NCBI GenBank assembly: GCA_011033025.1
Contig: WFMF01000324.1
Span: forward strand, 1 to 64,000
Direction: 5' to 3'
DNA: 64,000 nucleotides
Origin: Beroe forskalii
Lineage: Eukaryota; Ctenophora; Nuda; Beroida; Beroidae
Below the pieces are notes generated by a model. That model was not told the DNA's origin. It was given only the letters and a program-made list of their open reading frames with translations, and made no database searches. Numbering within the stretch: the stretch's first letter is position 1; each line of letters starts with the position of its first letter. This document shows, in pieces, positions 1 through 63,475 of this stretch. The position numbers and the translations under genes were made by a program.

Positions 1-3000
1 TTTTGCAAGTCAGTACAGTTTGATCCAACTAAGAAAGTTAGCAGATTGATTTTTAAGCCAATCTGGCATGCTGCACAGTGCCAAGCAGCCAGGATAATCC
101 AGGGGTCCTTGTAGACCTTGCCACTGTGATCTTTAGAGAGAGTGCTCTTGTCAGGAGTAGTGTTGACGTAGGGCACTGTCAACACGAGGATGATGCAACC
201 CAGCAGCATCACACCCGGCACCCAGAACGCTAGACTGCGGAGGAGAGAGGTTTTAGATAGATCTTAGATGAGATTTTTTAAAGACAGTTGATGGTAGAAC
301 AAGAAAGTTAACCACTTTGCTCCCTGTAACCGCCTATGGGGGTTGCCCCCCTTCTTGTACCCCCTATGGGGCTGCCCCCCACCTGTACCCCTATGGGGCT
401 GCCCCCTTACCTTTATCCCCTATGGGGCTGCACCCCCCTCCTACCTGTACCCCCTTTGGGGCTGCCCCCCTACCTGTAACCCCTATGGGGCTGCTCCCCA
501 CCTGTACCATCTATGGGGCTGCCCCCCTACCTGTAGCCCCTATGGGGCTGCCCCCTACCTGTAGCCCCCAGTCTCCCAGAGCACGCTGCCCAGGAAGGGT
601 CCGAAGGCCTGGGCCCCGTTGAGGGCTGCCTCCGCCAGGGCCGTCACGAAGGCTACTCGGGTGGGAACTAGCTTAGTCAGGATGGAGAAAGAGGTGACAG
701 CCATCGTGCCAGTAGAAGGTTGGGTTTGTCGGCAGTAGGGTCATACTCATATGGAATTGGAAAATCGTTATTCTCAACAATAACGTTATTCTCCCCAAAT
801 CTCTATGCCTATGATTCCGCCTTTCACGTTTTCGACAAACATACAATCAAATGATATCACTTAATCATTTAAACTGAGATAAGCTACTTGGACTTATCAT
901 TAACTTAGATAAGCTACCCACCAGTAGAAACTCCACAGAAGATTCGAATCAGGCAGGACATGACAATGTACACCGTGTTGCTCACTATCTTGTTGAAGAA
1001 ACTGAGGGGATTTGAGACTCAGCTCAGGGAATTACACTTACAGCTAATATCTTTCATTCCAGATAGACCTATGATTTCGTCGAGATCAATTTCTGTGTTG
1101 TCGAAAAAACCTTTTGGTACTACTGTAAATATAATGCTTCAGTATCAGACTTCCTTAGAGCTTCTGAGGAAATCTGAAAGTCAAGGAAATCTGCTAGTCC
1201 CGCAGAAGTTTCCGAATAACATCTCCTAAAATTCCAAATGATATCTGAATCTCTAAATTCTCGAGGCGTGCGTGACGCATGAGATAAGACAAAACAGTAA
1301 TGAGATAAGACAAGACAGTAATTGGATGAGAATAATATCACTTACTGCAGAATTCTATTAAATTCCTAAGAATTGGAATTTGGATCAACTCAACAAGATA
1401 AAATCCTATGGTATTTTTCATTCCGAAGAAGCGTGTGCGGTACACTTTCGCCTTATAATTACCCTTGCCTAATTCAAAATGATGACCAATGATAAGCCCA
1501 GAGCACTTGTGTTATTTTTCAGGCCTTGAATTATCAGTAGCACCATGGATTTATTCTTCATTGAATCGAGCATGGTCTTCAAAATAACACAAATGAATCT
1601 CTGACCTGTTGACGATGAAGAATGCTCCTAGTGTTGCGGATGCCCCAATTAGGACCGGTTTGTTGGACACGTGGTTCAACAGGACTCCAGCACACAGAGT
1701 CGCTCCCACACTCCTGCGAGAGTATTGCAGAGTGTTATTTCCAAAATGCAGGCAACATTAATTAAACATTTATATTATACATGGACATGTCGCTCCCACA
1801 CTCCTGCCAGAATATTTAGTGTCAGTTTCAAAATGCTGACAAACATTAATTATAGACATGGACATGTCCGAATGCATCTTAACATCGGAGAGGATCATGA
1901 CTGATATGAAATTAGTCAGCATTTCACGGCCCATATGCGAATGTATCTAAACACTAACACTTAACAGTGAACTTGAAGAGAATCGTGACTGATGACCAAT
2001 AACTATGAGGGATTTTATGTCCGAATGAATGTATCTAAAACCTGCACTGGAGCATGACTCACCCGACTGGCACGACGCCAATAATGACTCACCCGACTGG
2101 CACGACGCCAATAATGACTCACCCGACTGGCACGGTGCCAATAATGACTCACCCGACTGGCACTACGCCAATAATGACTCACCCGACTGGCACGACGCCA
2201 ATAATGACTCACCCGACGGGCACGACACCAATAATGACTCACCCGACTGGCACGACGCCAACTAATGACTCACCCGACTGGCACGACGCCAATAATGACT
2301 CACCCGACTGGCACGACGCCAATAATGACTCACCCGACTGGCACGACGCCAATAATGACTCACCCGACTGGCACGACGCCAATAATGACTCACCCGACTG
2401 GCACGACGCCAATAATGACTCACCCGACTGGCACGGTGCCAATAATGACTCACCCGACTGGCACTACGCCAATAATGACTCACCCGACTGGCACGACGCC
2501 AATAATGACTCACCCGACTGGCACGACGCCAATAATGACTCACCCGACTGGCACGGTGCCAATAATGACTCACCCGACTGGCACTACGCCAATAATGACT
2601 CACCCGACTGGCATGACGCCAATAATGACTCACCCGACGGGCACGACACCAATAATGACTCACCCGACTGGCACGACGCCAATAATGACTCACCCGACTG
2701 GCACGACGCCAATAATGACTCACCCGACTGGCACGACGCCAATAATGACTCACCCGACTGGCACGACGCCAATAATGACTCACCCGACTGGCACGACGCC
2801 AATAATGACTCACCCGACTGGCACGACGCCAATAATGACTCACCCGACTGGCACGGTGCCATGTGACTCACCCGACTGGCACTACGCCAATAATGACTCC
2901 CGACTGGCACGACGCCAATAATGACTCACCCGACTGGCACGACGCCAATAATGACTCACCCGACTGGCACGACGCCAATAATGACTCACCCGACTGGCAC

Positions 3001-4887
3001 GGTGCCAATTATGACTCACCCGACTGGCACTACGCCAATAATGACTCACCCGACTGGCACGACGCCAATAATGACTCACCCGACTGGCACGACGCCAATA
3101 ATGACTCACCCGACTGGCACGACGCCAATAATGACTCACCCGACTGGCGACGCCAATAATGACTCACCCGACTGGCACGACGCCAATGACTCACCCGACT
3201 GGCACGACGCCAATGACTCACCCGACTGGCACGACGCCAATAATGACTCACCCGACTGGCACGACGCCAAGCCACGACTCACCCGACTGGCTGGCGACGC
3301 CATAATGACTCACCCGACTGGCACGACAATGACTCACCCCTGACTGGCACCCGCTGGCGACGCCAATAATGACTCACCCGACTGGCAATGACGCCAATAC
3401 CTGGACAAGGCACCCGACTAAAGTGACACTCCCGACTGGCACTACGCCAATAATGACCCCGTCCCAGAGGGAGGACACGTTCCGCTGAGAGTGGTAGATG
3501 GGCAGGAAGGGAGCCGGAAGTGTGTACAGCATGAAGGACAGAGCTGCGGGGCATAGGGGGTTAGCAGGGTGTTAGCAGGGTGTTACACAGGCAGGATACT
3601 GGTCATACATATCATACAACTAGAGAATACCTAACTTGGTACATTGAAGGACCTGCCTGTTATACCTGGGGCATACTTCGGTCATATTTTTCAGTCAGAC
3701 ATACTCTTGAACATATTTGGTGACACTTCAGTCATAACTTGACCCTGGTGACCCTTGGCTGACCCCCTGAACCCTGGTGACCCCCTGAACCCTGGTGACC
3801 CTGAAAAAAAGTTTCCTGGTTTCAATAAGACCCCTGAATGGCGACCCCCCCTGACCCCTGGTTACCCCCTGAACCTTGGCTGACCCCCTGAATACTGGTG
3901 ACCCTCTGAACCCCGGTGACCCTTGGCTGACTCCTTGAACCCTGGTGACCCTTGGCTGACCCCCTGAACCTTGGCTGACCCTTGGCTGACCCTTGAACCC
4001 TGTTGACCCTTGGCTGACCCCTTGAAGTTGAACCTTGGTGACCCTTGACTGACCCTCGGCTGACCCCCCGAACCCCGGTGACCCTTGGCTGACTCCTTGA
4101 ACTCTGGTGACCCTTGGCTGACCCCCTGAACCCTGGTGACCCCTGAATGACCTCCTGAAGTCCTGAACTCTGGTGACCCTTGGCTGAACCCCTGAAGTCT
4201 GGTGACCCTTGGCTGACACCCTGGTGACCCCCTGGTGACCCCCTGGTGACCCTTGGCTGACACCCTGGTGACCCTTGGCTGACCCCCTGAAGTCTGGTGA
4301 CCCTTGGCTGACTCCCTGAACCCTGCTGACCCTTGGCTGACCCCCTGAACTCTGTTGACCCTTGGCTGATCTTTGAACCCTGGTGACCCTTGCTGACCCC
4401 CTGAACCCTGGTGACCCTTGGCTGACCCCCTGAACCCTGGTGACCCTTGGCTGACCCCCTGAACCCTGGTGACCCTTGGCTGACCCCCTGAACCCTGGTG
4501 ACCCTTGGCTGACCCCCTGAACCCTGGTGGCCCTTGCTGACCCCCTGAACCTTGGTGACCCTTGCTGACCCCTGAACTCTGGTGACCCTTGGCTAAACCC
4601 TGGTGACCCCCTGAACCCTGGTGACCCTTGTCCGACCCCCTGGTGACCCTTGCTGACCCTTGCTGACCCCCTGATCCCCTGGCTGACCCCCTGGTGACCC
4701 TTGGCTGACCCCTGAACCCTGGTGACCCTTATTGCTGACCCCCTGAACCCTGGTGACCCTTGCTGACCCCTGGTGTCCCTTAGAGTTAAGACAGAGAGAG
4801 GACGATGGTCACGACAGTAAATGCGTAGAGCATCTTAGTCTGGCTCAGCTGATAGCCTCTACTTTCGGTTTGTCCGGGTTTCGTCAT
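1..4887 (-). CDS. MFS transporter, SLC18B1-like (5' part; 3' end beyond window)
   Basis: Multi-pass membrane transporter of the major facilitator superfamily; substrate unknown. Exons on the minus strand, chosen by codon phase: 4797-4887 (ATG at 4887, MTKPGQTESRG start), 3432-3543, 1606-1713, 922-1001, 559-709 and 1-234, which runs off the left edge. The joined product has a short hydrophilic N-terminus, a first helix containing FMLYTLPAPFLPIY, then GATLCAGVLLNHVSNKPVLI, SCLIRIFCGVSTG, a long segment ending GSVLWETGGY, and LAFWVPGVMLLGCIILVLTV. The order resembles SLC18B1 (ILA..FP near VxA, then GP..G..LY..GGY). Three junctions are not GT..AG: 4797/3543, 3432/1713 and 922/709 (see findings). 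Three introns hold dense minisatellites and two of these repeat a donor site. Family call is firm at MFS level, weaker for SLC18B1. Confidence 0.72.
320..558 (-). repeat. Minisatellite reiterating an MFS splice donor (about 8 x 28 bp)
   Basis: Directly follows the exon at 559-709. On the minus strand the exon ends GGGGCTACAG and the intron starts GTAGGGGGCAGCCCC; the array repeats this border, so each unit carries a TACAG|GTAGGGG-like or TACAG|GTGGGG-like donor. Units vary by point changes and small indels. Open frames across it are repeat artefacts. Confidence 0.85.
1713..1812 (-). repeat. Duplicated acceptor plus exon start (2 copies)
   Basis: The acceptor of the exon at 1606-1713 reads GCAG|GAGTGTGGGAGCGAC on the minus strand. 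The string GGCAGGAGTGTGGGAGCGAC recurs about 90 bp upstream in the intron (1790-1812), followed by related flanks. This is a two-copy example of the splice-site-spanning repeats that occur throughout the window. Confidence 0.65.
2050..3410 (-). repeat. Minisatellite reiterating an MFS splice donor (about 45 x 30 bp)
   Basis: The minus-strand unit is about 30 bp and contains ATTATTGGCGTCGTGCCAGT followed by CGG|GTGAGTC, which matches the last bases of the exon at 3432-3543 plus a strong donor. Variants of the unit (GACGCC, GGTGCC, TACGCC and a GGGCACGACACC form, plus-strand spelling) recur in the same order in several blocks, so there is higher-order structure. The units closest to the exon (3300-3430) are degraded. 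Long open frames here on both strands follow from the 30-bp periodicity and are not genes. Confidence 0.9.
3725..4785. repeat. Minisatellite filling MFS intron 1 (CTGGTGACCCTTGGCTGACC type)
   Basis: Irregular tandem repeats of about 29-40 bp built from TGACCCTTGGCTGACCCCCT and GAACCCTGG modules, between the first two MFS exons. Unlike the neighbouring arrays I do not see the exon sequence itself inside the unit, so I class it as a simple intronic minisatellite. Open frames on the minus strand are periodic artefacts. Confidence 0.85.
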
Positions 4888-4949
4888 TGTGTGAAGATGT
4901 GGACAAATTCCCTTGGAAAATATTGCTTTTAAATTTTGAGGCTAGATAT

Positions 4950-5002
4950 AACAGGACATTGCTATTGTGACGTATGTGATTATACAGAAACGATTTAGAT
5001 CA
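4950..5002 (+). repeat. Dispersed repeat fragment (family A)
   Basis: Contains ACAGGACATTGCTATTGTGA followed by TATGTGATTATACAGAAACG, shared with copies near 9.7, 10.0, 31.7 and 60.5 kb. No coding potential. 5003-5880 is A+T-rich and holds nothing I can recognise. Confidence 0.6.
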
Positions 5003-11636: not shown

Positions 11637-14600
11637 TCTGAACAAATCACTCTCCATACAAAAGGGGACGTGGAAGTCGTACTGACCCGTGTCGTAGCAG
11701 GTGATGGTCGTCCTGAAGTGAAACATAGTGAAACACAAGGAAATATTTTATGGGAGAGCTTCATTCTTCAAACGCAAGGAAATATTTTTGAATGAATGTC
11801 AAACACAAGGAAATATTAAGTGAATGCATTTAAAACACAAGGAAATGTTTTGTGAATGAATGTAGAACACAAGGAAATATTAAGTGAACGAATATCAAAC
11901 ACAAGGAAATTTTTTTGATTGATTGTCAAACACAAGAAAATGTTTTGTGAATGGATTTCAAACACAAGGATATATTTTGTGAATGAATGTCAAACACAAG
12001 GAAACATTTCGTGAATGAACGAACATAATTTGTGGAAATTGCTGAGACGATAGTTTTAGTTGATTTAAGCTTGACGTACAGATTAATTGAGTAAAAATAA
12101 TTGATTAAATTAAACATGCACATAATCTCACATCAATGATTCTTCTCATTAAATACGAAAGTTTTCATAAATCAAAAAGTTTGTGAATCACTAGAGATCA
12201 TCAGATCAATCATCTTGTATTATGAATCAAAATAATTTTCATAACCCCAAAATATCATTCCATTAAATACTGGAATTAGGTAGTATGGTCCAGTGCACTG
12301 ATAAAATATTGAAACCTGAAATTGTTCTGATTTATGGACTTGAAATGAGCTCACAAAATTCATGCCCGTATTTGGACCTATCTGAGGATTTACCTCCATT
12401 CTCACAGTAATTTGATGAATTCAAGTCTACGATGCTGCTATATTATCACCGGCTTATTAGCTCATCCGTAGGATGCTGAAACCTTCTCGACACTGACCAA
12501 TCAGCGCGCGACTTGATAGTCAGCTCACGTACTGATTGGCCTAGTGTGCACATGCATAGATCGATGTAGGGATTGTTAAAGGCGCTCATTTTACAGCGTG
12601 CGCAATTTGCTTTTCATGAAATTTCAGTCGAAAGTGGTATTTTTATGCGTTTTTTATGCATCGATCCCTGCGCCCACATGCGAGTAAGGGGGTCTACGAG
12701 TAAGCTAATCTAGTAATCGATAACAGCTTGTTATAATTCCATTATTCCCGTTAGTACTGATTGATCTGAGGTCCCTGACTCACATAGGTTCAAACCTGCC
12801 GATGGTTGTATAGCCTGGCTTGCACAGGAATATCACGCTTTTACCGCACCGTGTCGGGATGGAGCCCTGCACTGACTCGTACAACCTCCTGTTGATCTGC
12901 AGATAGGTAATAGGGATGGGAAACAGCTCTTTTTTTGAAAAAAATTGGGAAAATAATGGAAAATTTATGATTTTCAATCGCAATAGTTATCCTGAAAATC
13001 TGACATTTCCTGCACGATCCTGCTTTTTTTTGGAAAAAATGGGCAAATATTGGAAAAGTTTATGATAATATGATTTTCAAGTTGAAAGTCATAAACTTTC
13101 CCCCTTATTTGCCCAATTCAACCGCCATAGTTATTCTTTAAATATGATATTTCCTGCACGATCCGTTAACTTTTTCAGTCTCTTATGAAATGATGTCTCG
13201 AGTTTGAGAAATGGGACGTATCAGTGAGACTTTACCTTGGTGGTGCAGACGACCTTCTCACAGGTGCCTAGGGGCGGGTCCCACACTTACCTTGGTGGTG
13301 CAGACGACCTTCTCACAGGTCCCTAGAGGCGGGTCCCACACTTACCTTGGTGGTGCAGACGACCTTCTCACAGGTCCCTAGAGGCGGGTCCCACACTTAC
13401 CTTGGTGATGCAGACGACCTTCTCACAGGTCCCTAGAGGCGGGTCCCACACTTACCTTGGTGGTGCAGACGACCTTCTCACAGGTCCCTAGGGCGGGTCC
13501 CACTTACCTTGGTGGTGCAGACGACCTTCTCACAGGTCCCTAGAGGCGGGTCCCACACTTACCTTGGTGGTGCAGACGACCTTCTCACAGGTCCCTAGAG
13601 GCGGGTCCCACACTCCATCGTTCCCACAAACACTCCGCCTCTCCCCCTTCCTCTTCTCACAGCTCTCACAGCTCAGAGACGCTGTGTCGCCTACTTTAGT
13701 GCCCGTTCTGAGGGGGGAATGGAGTTATGGAATGAAGGTAGAACATGAATAGAACGCAGTTGTCCGCTGAAAAGTAATCGCGGCGACTCATACTTCACGC
13801 CAAGAACATGAAAAGAATGTTGCAGTTGTCGGCATTTACTCATTTAGATAAGAAAGCCGTCTGAAACATATTGTGGCAGTGTTTCAGCATTAGGATTAAG
13901 AAATTCATTATGCTATAGCAAAGCCCTTTTTAAAAAGGAGGATGATATTTAGGCAAAAGACAGTTGAAAATTCAAATTAGTAAAAAGGATATTCTGTGAC
14001 CTACTGCCTAGAAACTCACATGGTAACATCACTACTCAGTACTCACATGGTAACATCACTACTCAGTACTCACATGGTAACATCACTACTCAGTACTCAC
14101 ATGGTAACATCACTACTCAGTACTCACATGGTAACATCACTACTCAGTACCATGGTAACATCACTACTCAGTACTCACATGGTAACATCACTACTCAGTA
14201 CTCACATGGTAACATCACTACTCAGTACTCACATGGTAACATCACTACTCAGTACTCACATGGTAACATCACTACTCAGTACTCACATGGTAACATCACT
14301 ACTCAGTACTCACATGGTAACATCACTACTCAGTACTCACATGGTAACATCACTACTCAGTACTCACATGGTAACATCACTACTCAGTACTCACATGGTA
14401 ACATCACTACTCAGTACTCACATGGTAACATCACTACTCAGTACTCACATGGTAACATCACTACTCAGTACTCACATGGTAACATCACTACTCAGTACTC
14501 ACATGGTAACATCACTACGGGAGATGTCAGGACACTCAGGCAGCTGACAGGTTGGAAGGTCACTACTCCACAGTCCGGACTCAGTGCAGGTGAGAGGGGT

Positions 14601-17600
14601 GGGGTCACTAATCACATGACCCGGAGAACAGCTCACTGTCACCTGGGAATGAGGAATGTTACTATGACAACAACTCACTGTCACCTGGGAATGTGCAGGT
14701 GAGAGGGGTGGGGTCACTAATCACATGACCAGGCGAACAGCTCACTGTCACCTGGGAATGAGGAGTGTTACTATGACAACAACTCACTGTCACCTGGGAA
14801 TGAGGAGTGTTACTATGACAACAACTCACTGACACCTGGAAATGATTCAAAATGCTTTTTACGCAGTGATAAACAATCAATTCTTCTAAATTTTACCTTA
14901 TCACGAAAATATATGGCTAGACTGGAACCCGTTGATTTACCACCTATAGCATGGAGATGAATGAGTAACTGGGGGATGTGAGATGAATATGTAAGTAAGG
15001 GGGGGGGGGGTATGTGAGATAAGTATGTGACTAGCTTGTCTCTGTGTTTTGAATATAGCATGGAGATGAGGGGGGGATGGGATGTGAGATGTAAAAAACC
15101 TACCTCTGTGCCGTACTCGGTTTCATTAGAGCTGAGGGTGCCTGCTGGAGGGGGTGTCAGGACAGGACACTGCACATCAGGAGAACACACTGGGATGGAA
15201 CTGTTCCACCTGCCGTTGTGACACCTCAGTGAGGCACTACCTCCCCGCACTTTATAACCTGCACAGGTTTACATGATAACAGAGGGTTTAAGAGGTGGGG
15301 GGGGTAAGCCTCCCCGCACTTTATAACCTGCACAGGGTTTACATAATAACAGAGGGTTTAAGAGGTGGGGGTAAGCCTCCCCGCACTTTATAACCTGCAC
15401 AGGGTTTACATGATAACAGAGGGTTTAAGAGGTGGGGGGGGGGGTAAGCCTTCCCGCACTTTATAACCTGCACAGGGTTTACATACGACAGAGGGTTTAA
15501 GAGGTGGGGGGGTAAGCCTTCCGCACTTTATAACCTGCACAGGGTTTACATAATGACAGAGGGTTCAGGGGGTTAGGTTAGCAGAGGTTTATGAGGGTTT
15601 AAACGATAAGCGGACAACTTTCAAAGGCGGATATTTGATAGGTCATTTAAAGATATCGATTGACCTGTCGAACTGTTGCGGGGTGATATGACAATCAAAT
15701 TTAAGAATGATTTATTGATTTAAATGGCCTGTCAAACTCCCTCCTTTGAAACTAGAGAGGTTTAATGCCTGTCTCATTACGATAACATTTCCTTTGAGTT
15801 AAGAGCTGATGCGAACCGTGGTTTTGTGCAGGAAATGAATAAAATACTGAATACACAGTAACGGAGTATCGAGCCCCAGGTCCATTTTGGGCTATTCCCC
15901 GGGGGCGTTGCACAAGGGATGTGTCTGGTCAGGCATTCAGGCAACTGGCAAGTATTATAAACCCGATGAGAACGTGAGAAGGCCCTGCAACTCTTACCCG
16001 CGTCACACTTTAGCTGCACCACGCCCTCAGGCAGACCAGTGAACCGGCCGTCGTGGGGCCGGGAGAGTTTGGGGCACCCGTTGGAGACACATTCCAAGTC
16101 GTCTATACCCCTCCATACCCCTGAGGGAAGTGGGAAGTGGTTACTAAATAGTAGTCTATACTGGGGGGCCGGGGGAGCTTCCACAGGTCCCTAGAGGCGG
16201 GTCCTTAACACTTACCTTGGTGGTGCAGACGACCTTCACAAGTCCCTAGGTGGCAGATTCCCCACACTTACCTTGGTGGTGCAGACGACCTTGTCACAGG
16301 TCCCCAGGGGCGGATTCCCACACTTACCAATTGGTGCAGACGACCTTCTCACAGGTCCCCCTAGGGGGGGTCCCACACTTACTCCTTGGTGGTGCAGACG
16401 ACCTCTCACAGGTCCCTAGAGGCGGGTCCCACACTTACCTTGGTGGTGACGACCTTCTCACAGGTCCCTAGAGGCTGGATCCACACTTACCTTGGTGGTT
16501 CAGACGACCACAGGTGCTCAGGGCGATCCCAGGCCTTGGTGGCAGACGACCCACAGGTCCCAATCCCACACTTACCTGGTGGTGCAGATGACCTTCACAG
16601 GTACCTGAGGCGGGGTCCACACTTACCTTGGTGGTGCAGACGACCTTCTCACAGGTCCTAGAGGGGCGGGTCCCACACTTACCTTGGTGGTGGTGCAGAC
16701 GACCTTCTCTAAGTCCCTATAGGCGGGTCCCACACTTTACCTTGGTGGTGCAGACGACCTTCTCACAGGTCCCTAGGAGGCGGGTCCCCACACTTACCTT
16801 GGTGGTGCAGACGACCTTCTCACAGGTCCCTAGTGGCGGGTCCCACACTTACCTTGGTGGTGCAGACGACCTTGTCACAGGTACCCTAGAGGCGGGGTCC
16901 CACTTACCTGTGGTGCAGACGACCTTCTCTCAGGTGCCTGGGAGGCGGGTCCCAGCCTTACTTTTTTGGTGGTGACGACCTTCTCACAGGTGCCTAGAGG
17001 CGGGTCCCACACTTACCTTGGTGGTGCAGACGACCTTCTCACAGGTCCCCTAGAGGCCCGGGTCCCACACTTACCTCCAGGTGGTGCAGACGACCTTCAC
17101 TCTAGAGGCGGGGTCCCTAGGTGCAGACGATCCCCCACTTTCCCTACCTTGCAGCAGACGACCTTTCTCACAGGTCCCTAGAGGCGGGTCCCAACACCCC
17201 CCTTGGTGGCAGACGACCTTCTCAGGTCCCTAGAGAGGCGGGTCCCACACTTGCAGACCTCCTGGTGGTGCAGACGACCTTCTCACAGGTCCCCAGGGCG
17301 GGTCCCACACTTACTCAGGGTGGTGCAGACGACCTTCTCACAGGTGCCTAGAGGCGAGGTCCCCACACTTACCTTGGTGGTACAGACGACCTTGTCACAG
17401 GTGCCCCTAGAGGCGGGTCCCACACTTACCTTGGTGGCAGACGACCTTCTCACCCCAAGGTCCCTAGAGGCGGGTCCCCACTTACCTTGGTGGGTGCAGA
17501 CGACCTTCTCACAGTGCCCTATGGGGTCCCCACACTTACCTTGGTGGTGCAGACGACCTTTTCACAGGGTCCTCAGAGGCGGGTCCCGCCTACCAATTGG

Positions 17601-20600
17601 TGCAGACGACCTTCTACAGGTCCCTAGAGGCGGGTCCCCACACTTACCTTGGTAGTGCAGACGACCTTCTCACAGGTCCCCAGGGGCGGGTCCCCTGGTT
17701 CACAAGTCCCTAGGGCGGGTCCCACACTTACGGTGGCAGACCTTCTCACAGGTCCCCTAGAGGCGGGCCACCTTGGTGGTGCAGACGACCTTCCCCTTAG
17801 TGCGGGTCCCAGGTCCCTAGACTTACCTTGGTGGTGGCAGACGGCCTTCACAGGTCCCTAGAGGCGGATCCCACCTTACCTGGTGGTGCAGACGACCTTT
17901 CACAGGTCCCTTGGTGGTGCAGACGACCTTCTCACAGGTGCCTAGAGGCGGGTCACACTTACCTTGGGTGGTGCAGACGACCTTCTATGGGTCCCTAGAG
18001 GCGGGTCCCACACTTACCTTGGTGGTGCAGACGACCTTCTCACAGGTCCCTGGGAGGCGGGTCCACAGGGGTCCCACACTTTTTGGTGGTGCAGACGACA
18101 CCTTCTCACAGGTCCCTAGAGGCGGGTCCCACACTTACCTTGGTGGCAGACGACCTTCTCACAGGCCGGTCCCCAAGTCCCTAGGGCGGGTCCACTTACC
18201 TTGGTGGTACAGACGACCTTTTTCACAAGTCCTAGAGGCGGGGTCCCACACTTACCTTGGTGGTGCAGACGACCTTCTCACTTACCCAGTCCCTAGAGGG
18301 CGGGTCCCACACTTACCTTGGTGGTGCAGACGACCTTCTCACAGGTCCCTAGAGGCGGATCCCACACCACCCTAGGTGGTGCAGACGACCTTCTCACAGG
18401 TCCCTAGAGGCGGGTCCCACACTTACCTTGGTGGTGCAGACGACCTTCTCACAGGTCCCTAGAGGCGGGTCCCACACTTACCTTGGTGGTGCAGACGACC
18501 TTCTCACAGGTCCCTAGAGGGCGGTCCCACACTTACCTTGGTGGTGCAGACGACCTTCTCAGGTCCCTAGAGGCGGGTCCCACTTACCTTGGTGGTGCAG
18601 ACGACCTTCTCACAGGTCCCCAGAGGCGGGTCCCACACTTACCTTGGTGGTGCAGACGACCTTCTCACAGGTCCCTAGGGGCGGGTCCCACACTTACCTT
18701 GGTGGTGCAGACGACCTTCTCACAGGTCCCCAGGGGCGGGTCCCACACTTACCTTGGTGGTGCAGACGACCTTTTCACAGGTCCCTAGAGGCGGGTCCCA
18801 CACTTACCTTGGTGGTGCAGACGACCTTCTCACAGGTCCCTAGAGGCGGATCCCACACTTACCTTGGTGGTGCAGACGACCTTCTCACAGGTCCCTAGAG
18901 GCGGGTCCCACACTTACCTTGGTGGTGCAGACGACCTTCTCACAGGTCCCTAGAGGCGGGTCCCACACTTACCTTGGTGGTGCAGACGACCTTCTCACAG
19001 GTCCCTAGAGGCGGGTCCCACACTTACCTTGGTGGTGCAGACGACCTTCTCACAGGTCCCTAGAGGCGGGTCCCACTTACCTTGGTGGTGCAGACGACCT
19101 TCTCACAGGTCCCTAGAGGCGGGTCCCACACTTACCTTGGTGGTGCAGACGACTCACACCTTCTCACGGGTCCCTACTTACCTTGGTGGGAGACGACCTT
19201 CTGGGTGGTGCACCTTGGTGGTGCAGACCTCTCACAGGTCCCTAGAGGCGGGTCCCACACTTACCTTGGTGGTGCAGACGACCTTCTCACAGGTGCCTAG
19301 GGGCGGGTCCCACACTCCATCGTTCCCACAAACACTCCGCCTCTCCCCCTTCCTCTTCTCACAGCTCTCACAGCTCAGAGACGCTGTGTCGCCCACTTTA
19401 GTGCCCGTTCTGAAGAGGGTTTGGAGTTATGGTATGTTGGTAGGACATGAATAGGGGTTTCACTTGTCTGGTGATAGCAGTTGCTCGCTGAGAAGTATGC
19501 GCGGCGACTCATACTTCACGCCAGGAACATGAAAAGAATGTTGCAGTTGTCTGCATTTAGATAAGAAAGCCGTCTGAAACATATTGTGGCAGTGTTTCAG
19601 CATTAGGATTAAGAAATTCATTATGCTATAGCAAAGTCCTTTTTAAAAAGGGGGATGGTATTTAGGCAAAAGAAAGTTGAAAGTTCAAATTAATAAAAAG
19701 GATATTCTGTGACCTATTGCCTAGAAACTCACATGGTAACATCACTACGGGAGATGTCAGGACACTCAGGCAGCTGACATGATGGAAGGTCACTACTCCA
19801 AAGTCCAGTCTCAGTGCAGGTGAGAGGGGTGGGGTCACTTATCACATGGCCAGGCGAACAGTTTACTGTCACCTGGAAATGAGGGGTGTTACTATGACAA
19901 CAACTCACTGTCACCTGGGAATGAGGAGTGTTACTATGACAACAACTCACTGTCACCTGGGAATGTGGAGTGTTACTATGACAACAACTCACTGTCACCT
20001 GGGAATGAGGAGTGTTACTATGACAACAACTCACTGTCACCTGGAAATGATTCAAAATGCTTTTTACGCAGTGATAAACAATCAATTCTTCTAAATTTTA
20101 CCTTATCACGAAAATATATGGCTGAACTGGAACCCGTTGATTTACCACCTATAGCATGGAGATGAATGAGTAACTGGGGGACAACAGATGAATATGTCAC
20201 CTGGGAATGAGGAGATAAGTATGACTAGCTTGTCTCTGTGTTTTGAATATAGCATGGAGATGAGTGGAGAACATGTCACTGTGAGTGAGTAACTGGGGGT
20301 GGATGTGAATGTAAAAAACCTACCACCTGTGGTAGAACAGTTTAGAGCTGAGTGTGCCGATTTAAAGGGCTTGTCAGGACAATGACTGCACATCAGGTGA
20401 ACACACTGGGATGAACTGTTCCTTATCACGTTGTGACACCTCAATGAGGCACTGCCTCCCCGATTTACCGCCTATTTTAATCTACAAAAGAGGGTTTAAA
20501 AGTTGCAATAATTCGATCCCCGCACTTGTCTCTGTGCACAGGGTTTATAATAACAGAGGGTTTAAGGGGTGGGGGGGAGATGTAAGCCTCCCATACCTGG

Positions 20601-24925: not shown

Positions 24926-24949
24926 CTGCAATAGCTGTGTCGGCTCTCG

Positions 24950-25262
24950 TGAAATGGAACAACTAGTGGGGGTTCTAGGGGAAATAAGGGGGGTTCTGGG
25001 TAAATTGGTGGGGGTTCTAGGTGAAATAGTGGGGGTTCTAGGTAAAATAGTGGGGGTTCTAGGTGAAATAGTGGGAGCTCTAGGTAAAATAGTGGGGGTT
25101 CTAGGTGAAATAGTGGAGGTTCTGGGTAAAATATTGGGGGTTCTAGGTGAAAAAGTGAGGTTTTAGGTAATAACGTGGGGGTTCTAGGTGAAAAAGTGGA
25201 GGAAAATAATGGGGGTTCTCCGGTTCTAGGTAATAATGTGGGGGGTTTTAGGTAAAATATTG
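24950..25262. repeat. Minisatellite (21-22 bp GGGGGTTCTAGGTGAAATAG)
   Basis: About 14 units between the sushi exon at 24840-24925 and the stop codon of the LDLa gene. Each unit contains a CCTAGAACCCCC stretch on the minus strand (an AG dinucleotide after a short tract) but not the exon itself. Simple minisatellite. Confidence 0.8.
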
Positions 25263-43100: not shown

Positions 43101-46100
43101 ATCCTATCTTCTCGTGAAGGTTTGCCACCTTTGTGCGGAGATCTGCAGCGAAGCCCTTCGAGAACTGACCAGACACAGAATCAATGGTAGCCAGGAGCTC
43201 AGTGCGGAGGTTTGCAAACACAGTTGTAGCCTGGGGAATTATATAGGGTTACAACAAAACGACTTCCTCCAAGACTATCCATTCAGAGTTTTAGGTCCCT
43301 CCGCATCGCGAGAAAAGTAAAAGAATATCAGCATATATTATACCGTTGTTTTCTTAGCAAGGAGGTTCTTGTCCAGCATAGTCCGGATGGATGCCCAAGG
43401 CATTAGTTTCTCAGTGAGAGTAGCACATTGGTAGTAGAGGGGGGAGGCTTCCACACTGAAATAACGCGTGGTTTGAGTCAGCTTCTTTGCCTTGTGGCAG
43501 GGGCAGGATAAACTAGCTGTTATTTTCGCTTAGGACTGGTCACTTGATCATATGTATCACCACAAAAGCAATACCGAGCATGCATCCTAGATGAGTGTAC
43601 ATACTCACTCATATCTCCTGTGGGCAGTGATTTGGCCGCTGATGTGTTCTGGAAGGTGGTCTGCCATGTTGTAGAGGAGACTCATGGCGAGGAAGTTAGC
43701 CAGCGTCCTGCAGAGATTCAGAGAAGGGGTTTAAGTGTTCCATTCATGAGTTACAGTTCAGGTGCCCCTGACCTATACTGGTCCAAATATGCTGGACTAC
43801 AAATTGGAAATATCAACAAACATTGCCCTTCACCAATTCTAAGTGCAATGTAATGAAACAATTAAATCCTGGATCTAATCAGACACTCACCTATCACTGG
43901 TGTGAGACAGGACTTTATTGAGGTCAGCAAAGTAGTCCCAGTTCTCAATGAACACAGGAGTGGAGGGATCCGGAGTTTGTTTGTCGGGGAACAGAGCAGT
44001 AATGTAGGCGGTCCAGTCAAACTGAGGATTGGAGGGGTAATAACTGAGGATTGGAGGGGTAATAACTGAGGATTGGAGGGGTAATAACTGAGGGTTGGAG
44101 GAATTACTAAAATTTTATAACAAGAGATCAAAACCATATAAGCCCATAAAAGTAGAATAAGACCTTGATAGACAGTGATTTTATGTTGATGCTCCTTCTC
44201 ACGATAAAGTACAGATACATTCGGTGACATCAATTGACCATTGACCTTGTAAAAACTCTTATCTATAATAGATATTTGGTGGCGTTGTATTACCGAGGTG
44301 ATGGGGAGGAAATCTCGGTAGAGCTGTCGGATTCTGAGCTGCTTGGGACTGTAGATGTCATGTCTGTAGTCCGGTAACACCTTGAAAGAGTAGATTTGCA
44401 GATCTTCAGAGACGAAGTACAATTATTCATGTTGCATTTTGTCAAGACTCTTTACTACTCATTACCGTGCAAACAACCTCGGATCGAACGGCTAGGACAT
44501 TTTCAGCACATCTCTCAAAGTGAGACCATACCCATATTCTTTGGTTTGTACGACATACCTTTGATATTTCCTGTTCGAAAGCAAAGACATCAGCCACATC
44601 AGCAGCCACTAAAGTCCTGTTGAAGGTAACTCCCAAGTTCATGATGTAATCCGTCATGCGGTTCCTGTACTCCTCTTGGCGCTGCGAAGTGAGGGAGTTA
44701 GTTTACCAACAGGTATATTTGACATCGGCCAATCAGCGCGCGAGTTGACTGTAAACTCGTTCGCTGATTGGTCGATGTCTTGAAGATTTCGCAATCCTAT
44801 GGGTAAGCTAATAATAATAATAATATGCCGCCGAGTATAGTGAGATCAAATTAGAAAGGACCTGCAATGAATGTTATAGTGAGAAATGAGGAAAACAAGC
44901 AAAAAAAGAGAGAAAACGATCTCTTGTTAATTGCTTTTCGGGAATTGATACGAATTTCTGTGCACCTGTTGGGTCCATGAAGCGTCCGAGTAATCCCATT
45001 TGTACATGTTTAGGGCGCTCGGGAAAATCTGAAATTGAGATGAAGTAATTTATGATTTGTGATGAGTACGAATTTTCCGGTTTAGTAATAAAATTAAAAG
45101 AGCGAAACTCAAATGGGTTACTAAATCTCAATCTTGATATTTTATAACTTGATATTTTGAATTTTTAGGACAAACTGCTTAAAATAGTCACTCAAGATCA
45201 CAATCCAAATTTTCACCTTGAGAGCAACATCGTTCGGTTTGAGAGGGTTCAAGCCTTTGGTGAATCTGAAGAGCGAGTTGACGTTCATCTGATGGAGCGT
45301 CTGAACCCAGAGATTCAGATCAAACTGCTTATTGTTCCAGCTTGAGCCCTGCAAGAAGTTATCAATGTCTAGTGAGGACTAAGGTAGGATAAGCTTGGAT
45401 AAACTTGGTTTACTATCTAGAGGGATAGCATTGGCAGAAGCGCAGGTTTTAGATTTGTGAGAACATAAGACCAAGGTGGTTCTTTCGAAATAAGATTGGT
45501 GCAGGTTATAGATTTGTGCGAACTTAAGACCAAGGTGGTTCACTCAAAATAAGATTGGTGGACTCACTGCGAGTGTAGGGAACTGAAGACCATCTCCCTT
45601 GTTGATAAGATCCAGGAGCGGCTTGCTGTTAGTTGAGTTGAGGGACTCTAAGTCCATACAGCTGCTGAACAGAGCCAGAACCTCCTTCGAATACTTCTGA
45701 GACTGGTCAGAAGACTCTATTGCCGACTGAAAATACGGTAGCACTAGGTGTTGACTAACTTCAAAACATCTCATACTTTGGTTAATATTATTCGCCCCTG
45801 AAGATTACTTCATATTCTGACCACCTGTTCACCCTTGTGTTAATCGTACCCTAAGCCGCTTGACGAAGGTATCCTGAAGGTCGTCCCAAACGCCGACGTT
45901 CATTGTGCTATCCTCCGCCGAGTGGTATAGCTTGTAACCCCCACAGGCATACTCGTAGAAGTCACTGTCAGGAAGATCAGGGTTATTAGAGAATGGTCAT
46001 AAAGTTTGAGTATTTCAACTAGTCTGAGTGAGTCATTGACACATTTTCGTGTTCCTGCAGACACAGTTACTTCACTCACTACAAAAAACGCACAATACAT

Positions 46101-49100
46101 CAGGGGGGGGGGCAACCCCCTCAATTTTGGTGGATATAAAAAAATCGCCAATAGGGGGTTTAATTTTGGGGGGTTTTGGGGGGTTTTAGGGGGTTTTGGG
46201 GGGCTTAATTCTTAGTGCAAAAATGGGCATTTTTTTCTCAAATGGTACCTTTTTGTTCCTGATTTTTGCACCATTTCAAAATGGTACCATTTTTTGGTCG
46301 TGATTTTTTGGCGATTTTTATAAATGGTACCATTTTGTTTCCAGTTTTGGTACCATTTTTGTTTATAATTTTTGGAACTTTTATGAAATGGTACCATTTT
46401 GTTTCTGATTTTCAGCATCTTTTTTCAAATGGTACCATTTTGTTTCTGATTTTTACATCCTTTCAAAATGGTACCATTTTGTTCCTCATTTTTGCACCAT
46501 TTCAAAATGGTACCATTTTTGTTCGTGATTTTTGGCGATTTTTAGAAATGGTACCATTTTTGTTTCCGGTTTTTGGTACCATTTTTGTTTATAATTTTTG
46601 GAACTTTTATGAAATGGTACCAATACCATTTTTGTTTCTGATTTTCAGCATCTTTTTCAAATGGTACCATTATGTTTCTGATTTTTAACACCCTTTCAAA
46701 ATGGTACCATTTTTGTTCCTGATTTTTTGCACCATTTCAAAATGGTACCATTTTTGTTCGTGATTTTTGGCGATTTTTAGAAATGGTACCATTTTTGTTT
46801 CGGTTTTTGGTACCATTTTTGTTTATAATTTTGGAACTTTTATGAAATGGTACCAATACCATTTTTGTTTCTGATTTTCAGCATCTTTTTCCAAATGGTA
46901 CCATTATGTTTCTGATTTTAACACCCTTTCAAAATGGTACCATTTTTGTTCCTGATTTTTGCACCATTTCAAAATGGTACCATTTTTGGTGGTGATTTTT
47001 GACGATTTTTAGAAATGGTACCATTTTTGTTTCCGGTTTTTTGGTACCATTTTGTTTATAATTTTGGAACTTTATGAAATGGTACCATTTTTGTTTCTGA
47101 TTTTCAGCATCGTTTTCAAATGGTACCATTTTGTTTCTGATTTTTAATATCCTTTCAAAATGGTACCGTTTTTGTTTCAGGTATTCAGCCCCTTTTTAAA
47201 TGGTACCATTTTTTTTGATTTTTGCCATCATTTTCAATTGGTACCTTTTTCGTTTCTGATTTTTCAGTACCAATGGTACCAATTTTTTGTCCGATTTTTT
47301 GCGTCTTTTCGAAATGGTACCTTTTTATTCGTGTTTTTTGGCAACTTTTTCAAATGGTACTTTTTTGTTTCTTCATTTTGGTGCTTTTTGAATCATACTA
47401 GAATAATTTCTGCTGTCGATAGGGGGTTTAATTTTGGGGGGTTTAATTTTTGCTGTCGATAGGGGGTTTAATTTTGGGGGGTTTGATTAACCCCCTGATG
47501 GATATAACAAATTTACTATAGGGGGCTTAATTTTGGGGGGTTGGCCCCCCCCCCCCACATCACTTCACTCAAAAGACATCAATTCACTCACTTGACATCA
47601 CTCAGAAGAGAACTAACTCACAAGTCAGACGTCACTTCAATTATTTGAAATTACTCACAAATATCACTTCAATCACAAGACATAACTCCACATACGAGAC
47701 AGCAGTCACACAGAAGACGTGTATGGTCATGAAGCTTGAGTATTTCAACCAGCCATTGACACATTCACATGTTCCTACAGAAATCACTCCACTCTCTATA
47801 AATCACTCAAATACAACACTTTACTCACAAAATATCACTTTCATCACTAGACATCACTCACAAGACTAAATTTTCCTCAGTAGAAATCACTCACGCAGGA
47901 CGTTACTTCACAGGGCATCACTAAACTAACTAGACATCACCTCACTACTTCACTGGTTATATTGCTCATCGCCCAATACTCATCACTAAATAACTATAAG
48001 TCACCTGCATGCCGGATGAGTTGTGTTGAGGTTGCTGGCAACTGCTGCTGCCGTCTCCACACATGGTGCTGAGTCACACGGAGTGTGGAAACAAGCAGTG
48101 AAACTGAATTTTTCATCTTTTATCGATGGAATTTTAGAGTTCAGAGTTTCAGAGTTGAATTTTATTCCTGAGCTGAGACTCAGGAGTGGGACGTTGCTAC
48201 CAAAAAAAACATAATCCTGTGACCTTCTTCTTTTAGTTTTTAGCAGGGAGGATGAGCCGGTCAGCCGGGGCCTGATCATGTGTATTCAACCACTTATCAG
48301 TTAAAAACTTACGTGTTTGTGCTGCGACTTGGCGTGTCCAATCACTCCGACTGTTGCAATGAGACCGATGTTGAGGACAATACTTAACACGACACCAATA
48401 ACTAGCAACCACCTGAAATTTGGCTTGGATCATATGGCACTATAATGACTATCCTGAATCCTGATAACTGGAATGCATCCATTGTTTCCAAATCTAATCA
48501 ATCTCTTGTACACAATATATTATATAATTGATTTCAATGGATCCATTGAATCATTAGTTTATTGGTCACAATGGATTCTCTGTCACAAAGTCAAATGGAT
48601 CCATTGTATCCAATGGATCAATTGCCTCCAATGGATTCAATGTGTCCCATTGCTGATGATCCAATGTGTCCAGTGGATCCATTAGGGACAATGGATCTAT
48701 TAGTATTCGACACATTGGATCCATTGGTGACATTGGATCCATTGGTGAAAATGGATCCATTGGACACAGTGGATCCATTGACTCAATAGATCCCTTGTCT
48801 CCAATGAATCCATCAGAGACAATGGAAACATTGAATCCATATTCTCCAATTTGGAGACAAAGGATAAGGATTCATTGTCTCCAAATCCATCATATCGCAT
48901 GGATCCATTGGATAAAATGGATCCACGCTGTAGTTGTGTTAAACTGATCCACAGTGTGATTAATCCGTGGGATACATTGAATCCATGATCCATCGTGTCC
49001 AATGGATCCATTGTCACCAATGAATCCAAAAGATCCATTGTCTCTAATGGATCCACTGGACACACTGGATCAATGGGACACATTGAACCCATTGGACTAT

Positions 49101-60300: not shown

Positions 60301-63300
60301 TATTTCGAGCTGTTTCGGTCGTATGAGGTGGCTCCAAATTCTGTACTATTCTAGCACAATTGCTAGCTTCTCTAGGGAGTTCGGGCTGGTTTCAGATGGT
60401 TTGCAACTGTAATTGGGCAAAAAGGTTAATTGACACTGAACCCATAATTTGAATCTAAATCTTGTCTGTATAATCAAATCACATTCGTCACAATAGCAAT
60501 GATAAGCCCTGACTGATTGCTACTATAAACGCTTCCATCATAAAGGTTTAGGGTGGCTCAACATTTTAGTAAATCTGCTGGTTGGTTTTGGACTTCAGCC
60601 TCGGGTTATCATATTATTGCATAAAACCTAGGTGATGCACTGAAACAACTCGAAAAGGCCGTTAGGGTGGTTCTGATCCAAAATAGGCTGCTCAGGGTGG
60701 TACGACATGCTTCAGTTGGTTCCCTCATTTTTAGTAGCAACGCATCGTTTCAATGGGAAGATTTGTGATTTTGTGATCCACACGACCACAGTCCACACAG
60801 TATATTTAAAGCTATCATTTATCTATCTATCATTTACCTATCGTTCATTTGTTTAACTTCAAATATCTGCAACAGAAGCTGGGCGTATTCCCTACTTAGA
60901 ACTTTAGAAGTAGCTTCTAACGGTACACTTAATTTGAATTACAATAACTGCTTTAGAGTTTCGTTTCTCTGGGGGCAACTGCTTGGAAGGAATCGACCAC
61001 GTGGTCTAGAGCTCCAGTACTGAAACAATGAGAACTAAACCACGTGACTATAGCCAGAGTCACGTGTGTCTCACGTGACCTGGTCACGTGCGCTGCCATA
61101 ACAACACGTCATGTGATAACTCATACAATGTTAGAGCCTTTGTGACTCACCGTGTTCGTATGGTGGCTGGTTATACACACGCACACACGTACCTGACGTT
61201 CGGCCGAGGTAGTGTCATATCGATGACTTGATAAATATTGGACATGGGTACCTAGCTAAATGTACCGTTTTAAGGTACTAAACAATGCTATACCTTTCTT
61301 ATTCTTAAGAAGACAATGCAGGCAGTGATACGTAGAGGCAATGTTTACTTTCATTTAAAATGGTTTAAATTCGAGGCGAGATAAATGTTAAGATATAGGG
61401 CGTGCATTGTGCCACGATAAATGAACAATGTTTCGGAAAACAAAGTTTAAGCGCTACGAATTCAATTTGTTATGGGTGCGGTGCAAAAGTACTATAACTG
61501 GTAAGGCAGGCAGAAATGTTCCACACGATCGTTAAACAGAGGAAAAAAGACGGTTCGGTTACTTATATTTGTGAGAATTCAACGGTTACTTTGCAGCAAA
61601 GTTTGCTGTGGTCATAGTAAATAAGTACCTAAATTCAAAGTACTAAAGTACTAAAAGTACCTAGATTACCAAATTCCGGTAACATTTAAAATGCCCTGAA
61701 ATCAATCAAATACACTCACTGTTGAGTCCCTTGTTTGTGAGGGTGCGAGGGGGTATCCACGCGTGCTTCACCAGCCCCGAATTGAGGAGGAAGTTGTTGT
61801 TCCGCCGCGGCCCCCCGTTGTAACCACCCTCCGACACGTCACTCTTGGGGGAGTCAGGGGGCGTCTTACTCCGCTCACCACCTGCGAATGGGGGAGTCAG
61901 GGGGCGTCTTACTCCGCTCACCACCTGCGAATGGGGGAGTCAGGGGGCGTCTTACTCCGCTCACCACCTGCGAATGGGGGTGTCAGGGGGCGTCTAACTT
62001 CGCTCGCCACCTGCGAATGGGGGAGTCAGGGGGCGTCTTACTCCGCTCACCACCTGAAAATGGGGGAGTCAGGGGCGTCTTACTCCGCTCACCACCTGCG
62101 AATGGGGGAGTCAGGGGGGCGTCTTAATCCGCTCACCACCTGCGAATGGGGGAGTCAGGGGGCGTCTTACTCCGCTCACCACCTGCGAATTGGGGAGTCA
62201 GGGGGCGTCTTACTCCGCTCACCACCTGCGAATGGGGGAGTCAGGGGGCGTCTTACTCCGCTCACCACCTGCGAATGATACGCTGTAAGGAGGATGAAGG
62301 TACTTAACTATACATTTGAAAATTGGGTGTGATTAACAAAGCACCAGGCAAATTAGGCAAAATGCCATGAGGAATAATTGTGGTGCGGTACTCAAGAAAG
62401 CGAGAAGTTACTGAGTGTTAGAAGCAGTGAACAGCATGCAACCTGAAGCCTGCAATTGACAGGCAGCTGCCCCTATACAAAAGTTAAACGACATCGTGAC
62501 GGAATGAGTGTGAAGTGGGTGGTGTTGTTCCTCACAGAATAATACAGATTAATACTTAGGATCTCGTATAATGGAATAATCTCATATGTTATGTCATGTC
62601 AATAATTATTATCTCATATTATGAGTCATAATATATGTAATCTCTTGTTATCGACTTGTGTTAGCTGTTTCTCAAGATACACGGAGAAATAACAGGAGCT
62701 AGTGGAGGTGCTCAGTGGGGCGTGTTATACAGCGGCAGTGTGCTATACCTACCCAGGTGCAGGTTTATTACCGGGTAGAGTGGTAACATGATACACGCAG
62801 AAAACCTGTGTTGTTTTATCACAGGGCTGATAAGAACAGCAGATGGCTAATAAGCATGAAGGGGCCCTGGCATAACACGTTATCGTGCTACCGTCTGTAA
62901 AAACCGCGTAACAATTTGAAATGCTGGTTTTTTCAGGTGCTGTGATATCATGCAATTGTGTATGAAGTTACTTCATTCACACTCGCATTGTTAGAATTGA
63001 AAAATAAAGAGCGCGCGCACGGAATGAAGTCCACTCCTCATCTGCTATGCTAGGCATATTATAAAGCAACCACGAAAATGGAAAATTCGCTCAGTCAAGG
63101 TATGAATTTATGATAAATCAAGTCAAATTATCAAACTTTCACACCCAATGATGAGTGGAGTTGGTTCATGATGACATCATTCACTAAAACTATTTGAAGA
63201 TTCAATTTACCTGAGGCAGTAGACGCTGGAGACTTGTTGGGCGATGACCCGGTATCAGAGTTGTTGTTATTGTTGTTGTTCTGGATAGGACTGTAAGGGG

Positions 63301-63388
63301 CCATGGGTGGTAGTGTTGAGGAGAAGGTGTTCACGGTGACATTGGGAGGAGGGATCAGGTGACCGTAGCCGTGGGTGTAGATACCACC
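51380..63388 (-). CDS. NK-type (NKL subclass) homeobox protein, NK6-like; 5' end outside window
   Basis: Sequence-specific transcription factor. Phase-consistent exons: 63211-63388, 61731-61880, 55401-55486, 54923-55009, 52835-52910 and 51380-51933 (stop). The homeodomain reads RKPRTIFSATQLNELE, then ERFKYQKYLSTTERSC, then LAYSLGLTEEQIK, then VWFQNRRSKWKKGDRK; L16, F20, W48, F49, Q50, N51 and R53 are present. Introns fall after homeodomain residues 17 and 46. LAYSLG...KVWFQNRR.KW is closest to NK6; the RKPRTI arm recalls Dlx, so the subfamily is not settled. An acidic stretch (EGEDED) follows. The last exon encodes QQQHVT/S hexapeptide repeats and ends KRHCHEDYHETR. Upstream exons carry poly-Asn (QNNNNNNN) and Ser/Pro-rich low-complexity sequence. 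Confidence 0.9.
51530..51850 (-). repeat. Coding minisatellite in the homeobox gene (18-bp QQQHVT/S unit)
   Basis: Within the last homeobox exon, units of the type CAGCAACAGCACGTGACC encode QQQHVT or QQQHVS; weaker versions (QPSHVPSQPNHV, APQNHVTAQ) extend both ways. Each His-Val pair is written CACGTG, so the exon holds about a dozen E-box palindromes. Confidence 0.85.
53795..54738. mobile_element. Long foldback element in a homeobox intron
   Basis: Arms of about 205 bp at 53795-54000 and 54530-54738: TAACGGGTGATGAGTAATTA with CATGCTACTGGCCGATTTG at the inner part, and their complements at the far side (GGCCAGTAGCATGGGAAAAC ... CATCACCCGTTA). Arms are about 90-95% alike by eye, loop about 530 bp with no long frame. 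A non-autonomous DNA element or an inverted duplication. Confidence 0.75.
56310..58795. repeat. Diverged satellite marked by conserved GTTGCC...GGCAAC hairpins
   Basis: Hairpins of the form GTTGCCTNNRGCAAC at about 56674, 56696, 56843, 56986, 57125, 58185, 58343, 58482 and 58643, with half-matches near 56322 and 58776. Spacing within the two clusters is about 133-161 bp. Sequence between the hairpins is A+T-rich and I see no alignment between spacers. No coding frame. Lies in the large homeobox intron (55487-61730). Confidence 0.65.
59370..59790. repeat. Minisatellite (about 19 x 22 bp, CCTCAGTGGGAATGTCTATAA)
   Basis: Nearly uniform units, a few with single changes (AAAAC, CTTTAAC). Located mid-intron, over 1.9 kb from the nearest exon, so it is not of the splice-border type. 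59791-60440 shows nothing recognisable. Confidence 0.9.
60446..60507 (-). repeat. Dispersed repeat family A, fragment
   Basis: GAATCTAAATCTTGTCTGTA followed by ACATTCGTCACAATAGCAAT, same orientation as the 31618 copy. Confidence 0.55.
60998..61090. promoter_or_regulatory. Cluster of five CACGTG E-boxes
   Basis: CACGTG at 60998, 61041, 61061, 61072 and 61085, five in 93 bp of A+T-rich intron, about 640 bp upstream (in transcription order downstream) of the exon at 61731-61880. CACGTG is bound by bHLH factors such as USF, MITF or Myc/Max. Possible intronic enhancer; position inside a developmental gene is the only support. Confidence 0.4.
61845..62280 (-). repeat. Homeobox-gene acceptor array (about 10 x 43 bp)
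   Basis: Exon 61731-61880 starts GTGGTGAGCGGAGTAAGACG after acceptor CATTCGCAG. The unit holds this acceptor, about 33 exon bases (up to CCCTGACTCCCCC) and is repeated about ten times upstream. Frames across it on the plus strand are artefacts. Confidence 0.93.
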
Positions 63389-63475
63389 CTGTAAAAGGAA
63401 GGTTCAGGTGGGTGTAGATACCACCCTGTAAGAGGAAGGTTTAGGTGGGTGTAGATACCACCCTGTAAAAGAATC
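63360..63475 (-). repeat. Homeobox-gene acceptor array (3 x about 45 bp)
   Basis: Acceptor TTTTACAG and exon start GGTGGTATCTACACCCAC of 63211-63388 are repeated in two further upstream copies with an AACCTTCCT linker. Confidence 0.88.

Follow-up and report, generated by a model that had tools for sequence, protein, structure and literature searches.

Tandem arrays of exon/intron junctions in an animal genome are probably chance-born minisatellites akin to amphioxus mirages

Positions 1 to 64,000 of contig WFMF01000324.1 (the window, meaning the whole stretch that was analysed) contain introns whose edges are built of tandem repeats, most units of which carry a splice site together with adjoining exon bases. 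Do such junction arrays betray a process that acts on exon edges and makes introns grow from them, as the original prediction held, or are they minisatellites like any others that came to straddle a border? Here we show that 17 of the 18 arrays originally listed repeat an exon/intron border in register beside an open exon, that the junction multiplied in one of them is single in a paralogue, and that the window is enriched for junction arrays while a 200-kb sample of the same genome is not. We conclude that these arrays are probably ordinary minisatellites born by chance across splice junctions, an arrangement described in amphioxus under the name of mirages.

Arrays in the window were located using Tandem Repeats Finder (TRF; 103 rows, a good number of which are strong arrays) and by counting junction words in 12 stretches. 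When the strands are read, exon ends precede donor arrays and exon starts follow acceptor arrays, as had been stated, although this arrangement is pure geometry. Units measure 11 to 67 bp at donors and acceptors, with a 109-bp higher-order unit in addition (TRF) and a further acceptor duplication with a unit of ~85 bp read by eye; as also foreseen, both intron ends are affected and unit sequences are unrelated except between paralogous duplicates. Exact words recur at regular intervals: GGGTGAGT 44 times at 2000-3500, mostly 30 bp apart; AAGGTAAG six times at 13.2-13.7 kb and 37 times at 16.2-19.4 kb, in two paralogous sushi arrays; CATGTGAGT 18 times at 14.0-14.6 kb, with a spacing of 27 bp and once of 51 bp; and the acceptor word CCAGGTGACAG five times, 42 bp apart, at 19.85-20.07 kb. 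An eleventh acceptor array at 24964-25199, absent from the earlier list, emerged from TRF and the random-placement scan described below. The array pairs 13225/16165 and 14642/19872 are paralogous copies, which leaves ~15 independent births. The listed array that did not hold up, 34395-34555, lacks a recognizable exon: the closest one found (34178-34279) ends ~115 bp off, and the top exon at the array scores just 2.2 in the ab initio scorer. The features are as follows.

323-569, minus strand: donor array (29 bp x 8.4) where an MFS-transporter exon ends (..VLWETGGYR) (TRF; MFS_1 match of the exon)
577-712, minus strand: MFS exon whose 3' edge is repeated (Pfam MFS_1, E 6e-4, under the curated cut-off)
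1713-1812, minus strand: acceptor duplication, two diverged copies ~85 bp apart (by eye; absent from the TRF table)
2054-3410, minus strand: donor array, 30 bp x 43, unit of ~24 bp exon + GTGAGT (TRF, word count; exon by eye)
13232-13614, minus strand: donor array, 55 bp x 7, unit of ~50 bp exon + GTAAG (TRF, word count, ab initio)
13563-13707, minus strand: sushi exon TGTKVGDTAS..CTTK (ab initio; Pfam Sushi 2e-4)
14014-14518, minus strand: donor array, 27 bp x 18.8, young, with an array-free paralogue (TRF, word count, paralogue comparison)
14503-14642, minus strand: sushi exon VTVSCSPGHV.., arrays on both edges (ab initio, random-placement scan)
14584-14845, minus strand: acceptor array, 42-bp units + 109-bp duplication (TRF, word count)
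15240-15565, minus strand: acceptor array, 67 bp x 4.7, with GTGCAG before and GTTATAAAG after the border (TRF, word count)
16178-19316, minus strand: donor array with 55-bp units and 37 exact donor words, paralogous to 13232-13614 (TRF, word count, self-comparison)
19265-19409, minus strand: sushi exon, paralogue of 13563-13707 (ab initio)
19733-19872, minus strand: sushi exon with single-copy donor, array-free counterpart of 14014-14518 (ab initio; Pfam Sushi 1.5e-4)
19865-20050, minus strand: acceptor array, 42 bp x 4.4 (TRF, word count)
21326-21479, minus strand: acceptor array, 58 bp x 2.7, unit of ~23 bp exon + 35 bp intron (TRF)
21674-23096, minus strand: donor array, 17 bp, ~73 copies, interrupted and degenerate (TRF, word count)
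24584-24858, minus strand: donor array, 11 bp x 16 + 64 bp x 2, position of the exon end ambiguous (TRF, word count)
24964-25199, minus strand: acceptor array, 21 bp x 11, before a sushi-like exon (TRF, word count, random-placement scan)
34457-34553, no strand: 44 bp x 2.2 array, unconfirmed as a splice-junction array (TRF, exon scorer)
35215-36634, minus strand: acceptor array, 33 bp x 44, beside an exon recognized only by eye (TRF)
37800-37895, minus strand: acceptor duplication at an M13 exon, with a two-copy version at the paralogous exon near 42285 (paralogue comparison)
39454-40636, minus strand: acceptor array, 22 bp x 54.6, preceding M13 exon FDWTAYI.. (TRF)
42107-45726, minus strand: neprilysin-like (peptidase M13) gene, 11 exons traced (PDB, Pfam)
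44020-44101, minus strand: counterpart of the 39454-40636 acceptor array, only 3.7 copies, in an 86% identical duplicate (TRF, self-comparison)
61846-62277, minus strand: acceptor array, 43 bp x 10; exon without independent support (TRF)
63371-63471, minus strand: acceptor array, 37 bp x 2.7, preceding exon GGIYTHGYGHLIPPP.. (TRF, exon scorer)

Homology in Pfam or PDB, either direct or through a window paralogue, backs the exons of 8 of the 18 listed arrays. The exon of 320-558 matches MFS_1 (E = 6e-4, beneath the curated cut-off); those of 13225 and 16165 share an identical peptide that matches Sushi (2e-4); those of 13990, 14642 and 19872 are covered by a Sushi match (1.5e-4) obtained with the 19872 exon as the query; and those of 37800 and 39456 belong to peptidase M13 (neprilysin in PDB, 7.6e-16; Pfam Peptidase_M13_N, 1.6e-39), on the basis of searches run with the paralogous exons at 42285 and 44021. 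The spliced M13 protein is colinear with neprilysin across the junction bearing the 22-bp acceptor array (PDB, 7.6e-16). For the remaining nine arrays, the exons rest on open frames, ab initio exon score or reading by eye, and the scorer rates those at 2054-3327 (-1.3) and 61846-62277 (-4.2) as poor and yields no right-strand exon at 35215-36634.

How an array begins can be followed where the sushi region is duplicated inside the window (82% identity across 1.7 kb). One copy has a single donor at the exon end, with GTAGTGATGTTACCAT before and GTGAGTTTCTAGG after the border; in the other (14014-14518) the junction stands 18 times, with ACTGAG between copies, and the flanks of the array are 94% and 97% identical to those of the array-free paralogue. 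The 27-bp unit joins the 21-bp single-copy junction of the paralogous exon end to a 6-bp filler, ACTGAG, which recurs 72 bp upstream in the exon. Because the junction is single in one paralogue and multiplied with ACTGAG in the other, between closely matching flanks, the new unit is a pre-existing junction plus filler. Loss of an older array from the 19733-19872 copy would look the same, but it would require exact restoration of the single junction. The pattern fits error-prone end-joining or slippage, a repair pathway that we infer, followed by growth of the array. Copy number also changes between duplicates, with 54.6 versus 3.7 copies at the M13 gene, which is partly duplicated in tandem with its arrays included (36165-39536 versus 40653-44102, 86-88% identity), and 7 versus ~50 at sushi.

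We therefore envisage a simple course of events. A short tandem duplication with a few filler bases would copy the exon edge and its splice site, as seen at the one site above, and the array would then expand or contract in copy number, as the paralogues indicate. The exon-facing copy would presumably still provide the splice site, the extra copies being intronic and removed by splicing unnoticed, and duplications that damage the exon would be eliminated by selection. The one-sided placement, with donor arrays downstream of the exon and acceptor arrays upstream of it, arises because an array invading an exon would destroy it. Minisatellites are made widely in this genome, with arrays of TRF score of at least 80 covering 11.4% of the 200-kb sample and 24.6% of the window, and so some fall on splice junctions.

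The question is then whether junctions receive more than their share. The sample comprised 20 loci of 10 kb drawn from eight long contigs of the host assembly (216 Mb in 1,134 contigs). Observed arrays with a TRF score of at least 70 and a period of at most 150 (91 of 93 in the sample) were each checked for a coding exon with its donor inside the first unit or its acceptor inside the last, and compared with arrays of matching unit lengths placed randomly in non-array DNA; these control arrays were two units long and allowed inside exons, making the control generous. At a total score of 12, the exon scorer returned 32 exons in the real 200 kb versus 3 in the reversed control. In the window, 10 of 40 arrays lay on junctions at score 7 compared with a random mean of 2.57 (0 of 60 replicates as high), falling to 7 versus 1.48 at score 9 (0 of 60) and 3 versus 0.75 at score 11 (5 of 60). 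The genome sample shows no excess, with 5 of 91 arrays compared with 5.72, 4.53 and 3.85 at random (29, 16 and 12 of 40 replicates as high); on this small scale, with random means of 3.9-5.7 in 200 kb, the refutation test that came with the original prediction does not bear out its proposal of a routine splice-junction process.

Counts of splice-site words give the same picture. Across the whole genome the donor word AGGTRAGT is not preferentially tandem (16,902 occurrences, 2,023 pairs at 10-40 bp) when set beside its mirror, the reversed word (29,409 and 7,270). These pair counts are dominated by large arrays, and loci were therefore also counted on contig 1: among the first 100 matches listed, which cover the strands unevenly, tandem loci made up 5 of 72 for the donor word and 4 of 91 for a scrambled word with grouping at 200 bp, and 6 of 81 and 3 of 92, respectively, at 60 bp, where a single array contributes four of the six. 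Acceptors in the array units of the sample number 2 versus 1.2 in the comparison with shuffled or reversed units (score 6). Counted per site at score 5, donors form 8 tandem clusters to 136 single sites in the sample (14 to 139 when reversed) and 9 to 51 in the window (1 to 40 when reversed).

Junction arrays are also found on other contigs. An exon of Rpt2/PSMC1 (L022; PDB 5.6e-34) has a junction array of 61 bp x 2.8, a DYRK1 exon (L039; PDB 6.9e-8) has arrays at both ends (donor 44 bp x 2.3, acceptor 40 bp x 10.6), and an array of 53 bp x 4 precedes an AAA lid exon (L028; AAA_lid_3, 1.8e-9). Less firmly anchored are arrays at L009 and L050 and the donor array of L028. An ARIH-like label considered for the L050 exon found no PDB or Pfam support, and the exon is left unnamed. 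By eye, the arrays at L020 2392-2537, L021 2112-2199 and L022 467-525 start at most ~15 bp from a splice site and exclude the site itself; L009 and L020 are presumably VCP, and L021 is presumably VPS4. In the set of AAA-domain loci, from which L019, L026, L029 and L030 were excluded as overlaps or near-copies of other loci, 5, 4 and 3 of 15 arrays were scored on junctions compared with 2.40, 2.15 and 1.97 at random (7, 15 and 19 of 60 replicates as high); one of those scored, the acceptor case L025, was rejected by eye, its array stopping ~60 bp ahead of the acceptor.

The arrays enlarge their introns and leave decoy splice sites, as originally claimed, although the site is kept in most rather than all units: over nine window arrays the splice dinucleotide is intact in 269 of 284 copies. 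Its mean divergence is 0.025 versus 0.046 in other columns and is the lower of the two in six of the nine arrays, yet it is an outlier in none (fraction of dinucleotides as conserved, 0.06 to 0.96). The decoys have not been purged and are not clearly protected, which is what one would expect were the exon-facing copy simply to win.

An alternative to chance birth is a process targeted to splice junctions, in which exon edges initiate tandem duplications and introns grow from their edges, with transcription-linked breaks, nucleosome borders, U1-bound nascent RNA or the AGGT word itself as candidate triggers. Several observations weigh against our preferred explanation, and some of them also count in favour of such targeting. 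The excess in the window is about fourfold, and at scores 7 and 9 none of the 60 random placements reaches it. The AAA loci tend weakly in the same direction, with three arrays at AAA exons (L020, L021 and L022) starting just short of the splice site. In the array units of the sample, strong donors number 6 of 76 at score 6, compared with 1.1 in shuffled and 0 in reversed units, and per site at score 7 there are 2 tandem donor clusters to 24 single sites versus 0 to 23 when reversed. The exon scorer, trained on 12 kb, misses real exons (DYRK1) and admits doubtful ones (a donor at 19865), and by a rough Poisson estimate the genome-wide junction excess could be as high as ~2.5-fold. Finally, at the DYRK1 acceptor, TTTGAG stands in the exon-facing copy of the array and TTTCAG in the inner copies, so that the copy used for splicing may not always be the consensus one. 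Against targeting stand the absence of an excess in the 200-kb genome sample, the lack of preferential tandem repetition of the donor word (per-site scores 5 and 6, genome word counts and contig 1) and the fact that survival suffices to explain one-sided placement; we consider it unlikely. The local excess in the window would instead reflect gene-rich, repeatedly duplicated and array-rich loci and, in part, the choice of this window for its striking look.

Retention for a function, with extra donors or acceptors tuning splicing or yielding protein variants, would suit the many intact dinucleotides and their lower divergence in six arrays. Arrays homogenise anyway, however, and the dinucleotide stands out in none of them; unit lengths of 55, 29, 17, 11, 22, 43 and 37 are not multiples of three, so the use of an inner copy would often shift the frame; and the 14014 array is missing from a paralogue whose flanks are 94-97% identical. 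We regard this explanation as highly improbable. Tandem arrays are often misassembled, and the copy numbers given here are those of the assembly, but a collapse or inflation of repeats is barely credible as the source of structures whose copies bear sequence variants, which have single-copy and low-copy paralogues and which look the same in short arrays of 2-4 copies. Chance birth across junctions, tolerated by splicing, thus remains the explanation that we favour.

Such structures have a precedent, as mirages are said to have been described in amphioxus Adh3 by Canestro et al. in 2002. In the amphioxus globin genes BflGb6 and BflGb9, mirages are minisatellite-like tandem repeats of the exon/intron boundary, with units of ~10-160 bp at 5' and 3' intron boundaries, copy numbers that are unstable between alleles and in somatic tissue, and RT-PCR results that suggest normal splicing (PMC3087553). 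The supposition that no genome was known to do this is therefore superseded by arrays already in print (PMC3087553). Those arrays share with ours a boundary within the repeat unit, an occurrence at both intron ends and in several genes, differing unit lengths, AG/GT signals in many repeats though not in every one, and unstable copy number, here between paralogues; they differ in having 3 to 6 copies in BflGb6, compared with up to ~73 here (PMC3087553), and in their cephalochordate host, whereas mitochondrial COX1 reads here with table 4, in an apparent non-cephalochordate. Likewise, in human segmental duplications, minisatellites of ~30 bp differ between recent paralogues and can alter intron structure where they lie at exon-intron boundaries; there, 27 intron modifications among primate paralogues include some novel introns, whereas here the edges of existing introns are involved (PMC2812944). 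Intron gain by tandem genomic duplication of AGGT also duplicates a splice-site word, but makes a new intron within an exon, while our arrays sit at intron edges (PMC3443670). Introners similarly enlarge the intron complement with repeated DNA, but are dispersed copies of one element, in contrast to units that are mutually unrelated save for paralogous duplicates (PMC9860276).

The identity of the host was approached through COX1, the sole match to which lies on a 13,339-base contig (C1134, L051) as a very divergent 502-residue frame. Set beside the conserved arginine positions of animal COX1 and the mitochondrial codes of bilaterians, the frame is sensible under genetic code table 4, with TGA as tryptophan and AGA/AGG at conserved arginine positions. 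Judged by its codons, this suggests a non-bilaterian and speaks against amphioxus or other bilaterians; the strong divergence of the protein hints at a ctenophore. No mirage in a non-bilaterian was evident among the titles listed in searches of the open PMC library, which is not proof of absence. The arrays appear to be a known kind of structure in an apparently new host lineage.

Other features were observed alongside. HExxH is the catalytic motif of neprilysin, and the neprilysin segment IGHEITHGFDD corresponds to LGYYMVYALED in the M13 protein of the window (42107-45726, minus strand), so that this gene has lost the motif and may encode a pseudoenzyme. An exon of a galaxin-like repeat protein lies at 33189-33521 on the minus strand (Pfam PF24748, 1.2e-18). 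Two contigs share a satellite of ~226-229 bp based on AAATGGTACCATTTTTGTT (window 46240-47272; L046 4326-5244). Triple TTAGGG has 943 matches genome-wide, overlaps counted (for example, C1:32013, C44:285069 and C154:417256), some of them far from contig ends and oppositely oriented at distances of a few hundred bases. Rfam gave 0 matches in the window and in 15 of the 20 sample loci.

Junction targeting, if it held genome-wide, would identify a mutational source of intron growth; the present sample gives no clear sign of it. It is rather improbable, in our judgement, that in a subset of fast-evolving duplicated genes of this non-bilaterian lineage tandem duplications arise preferentially at splice junctions, lengthening introns from their edges and leaving decoys able to seed new introns; if true, this would, together with the amphioxus cases, point to a mutational habit of exon edges that recurs across animals. 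Mirages have so far been reported from a few lancelet genes, and here they occupy 17 sites in 64 kb of an apparently distant animal, where a datable birth and an array-free paralogue provide a system in which to trace what becomes of duplicated splice sites and how a mirage might turn into a new intron.

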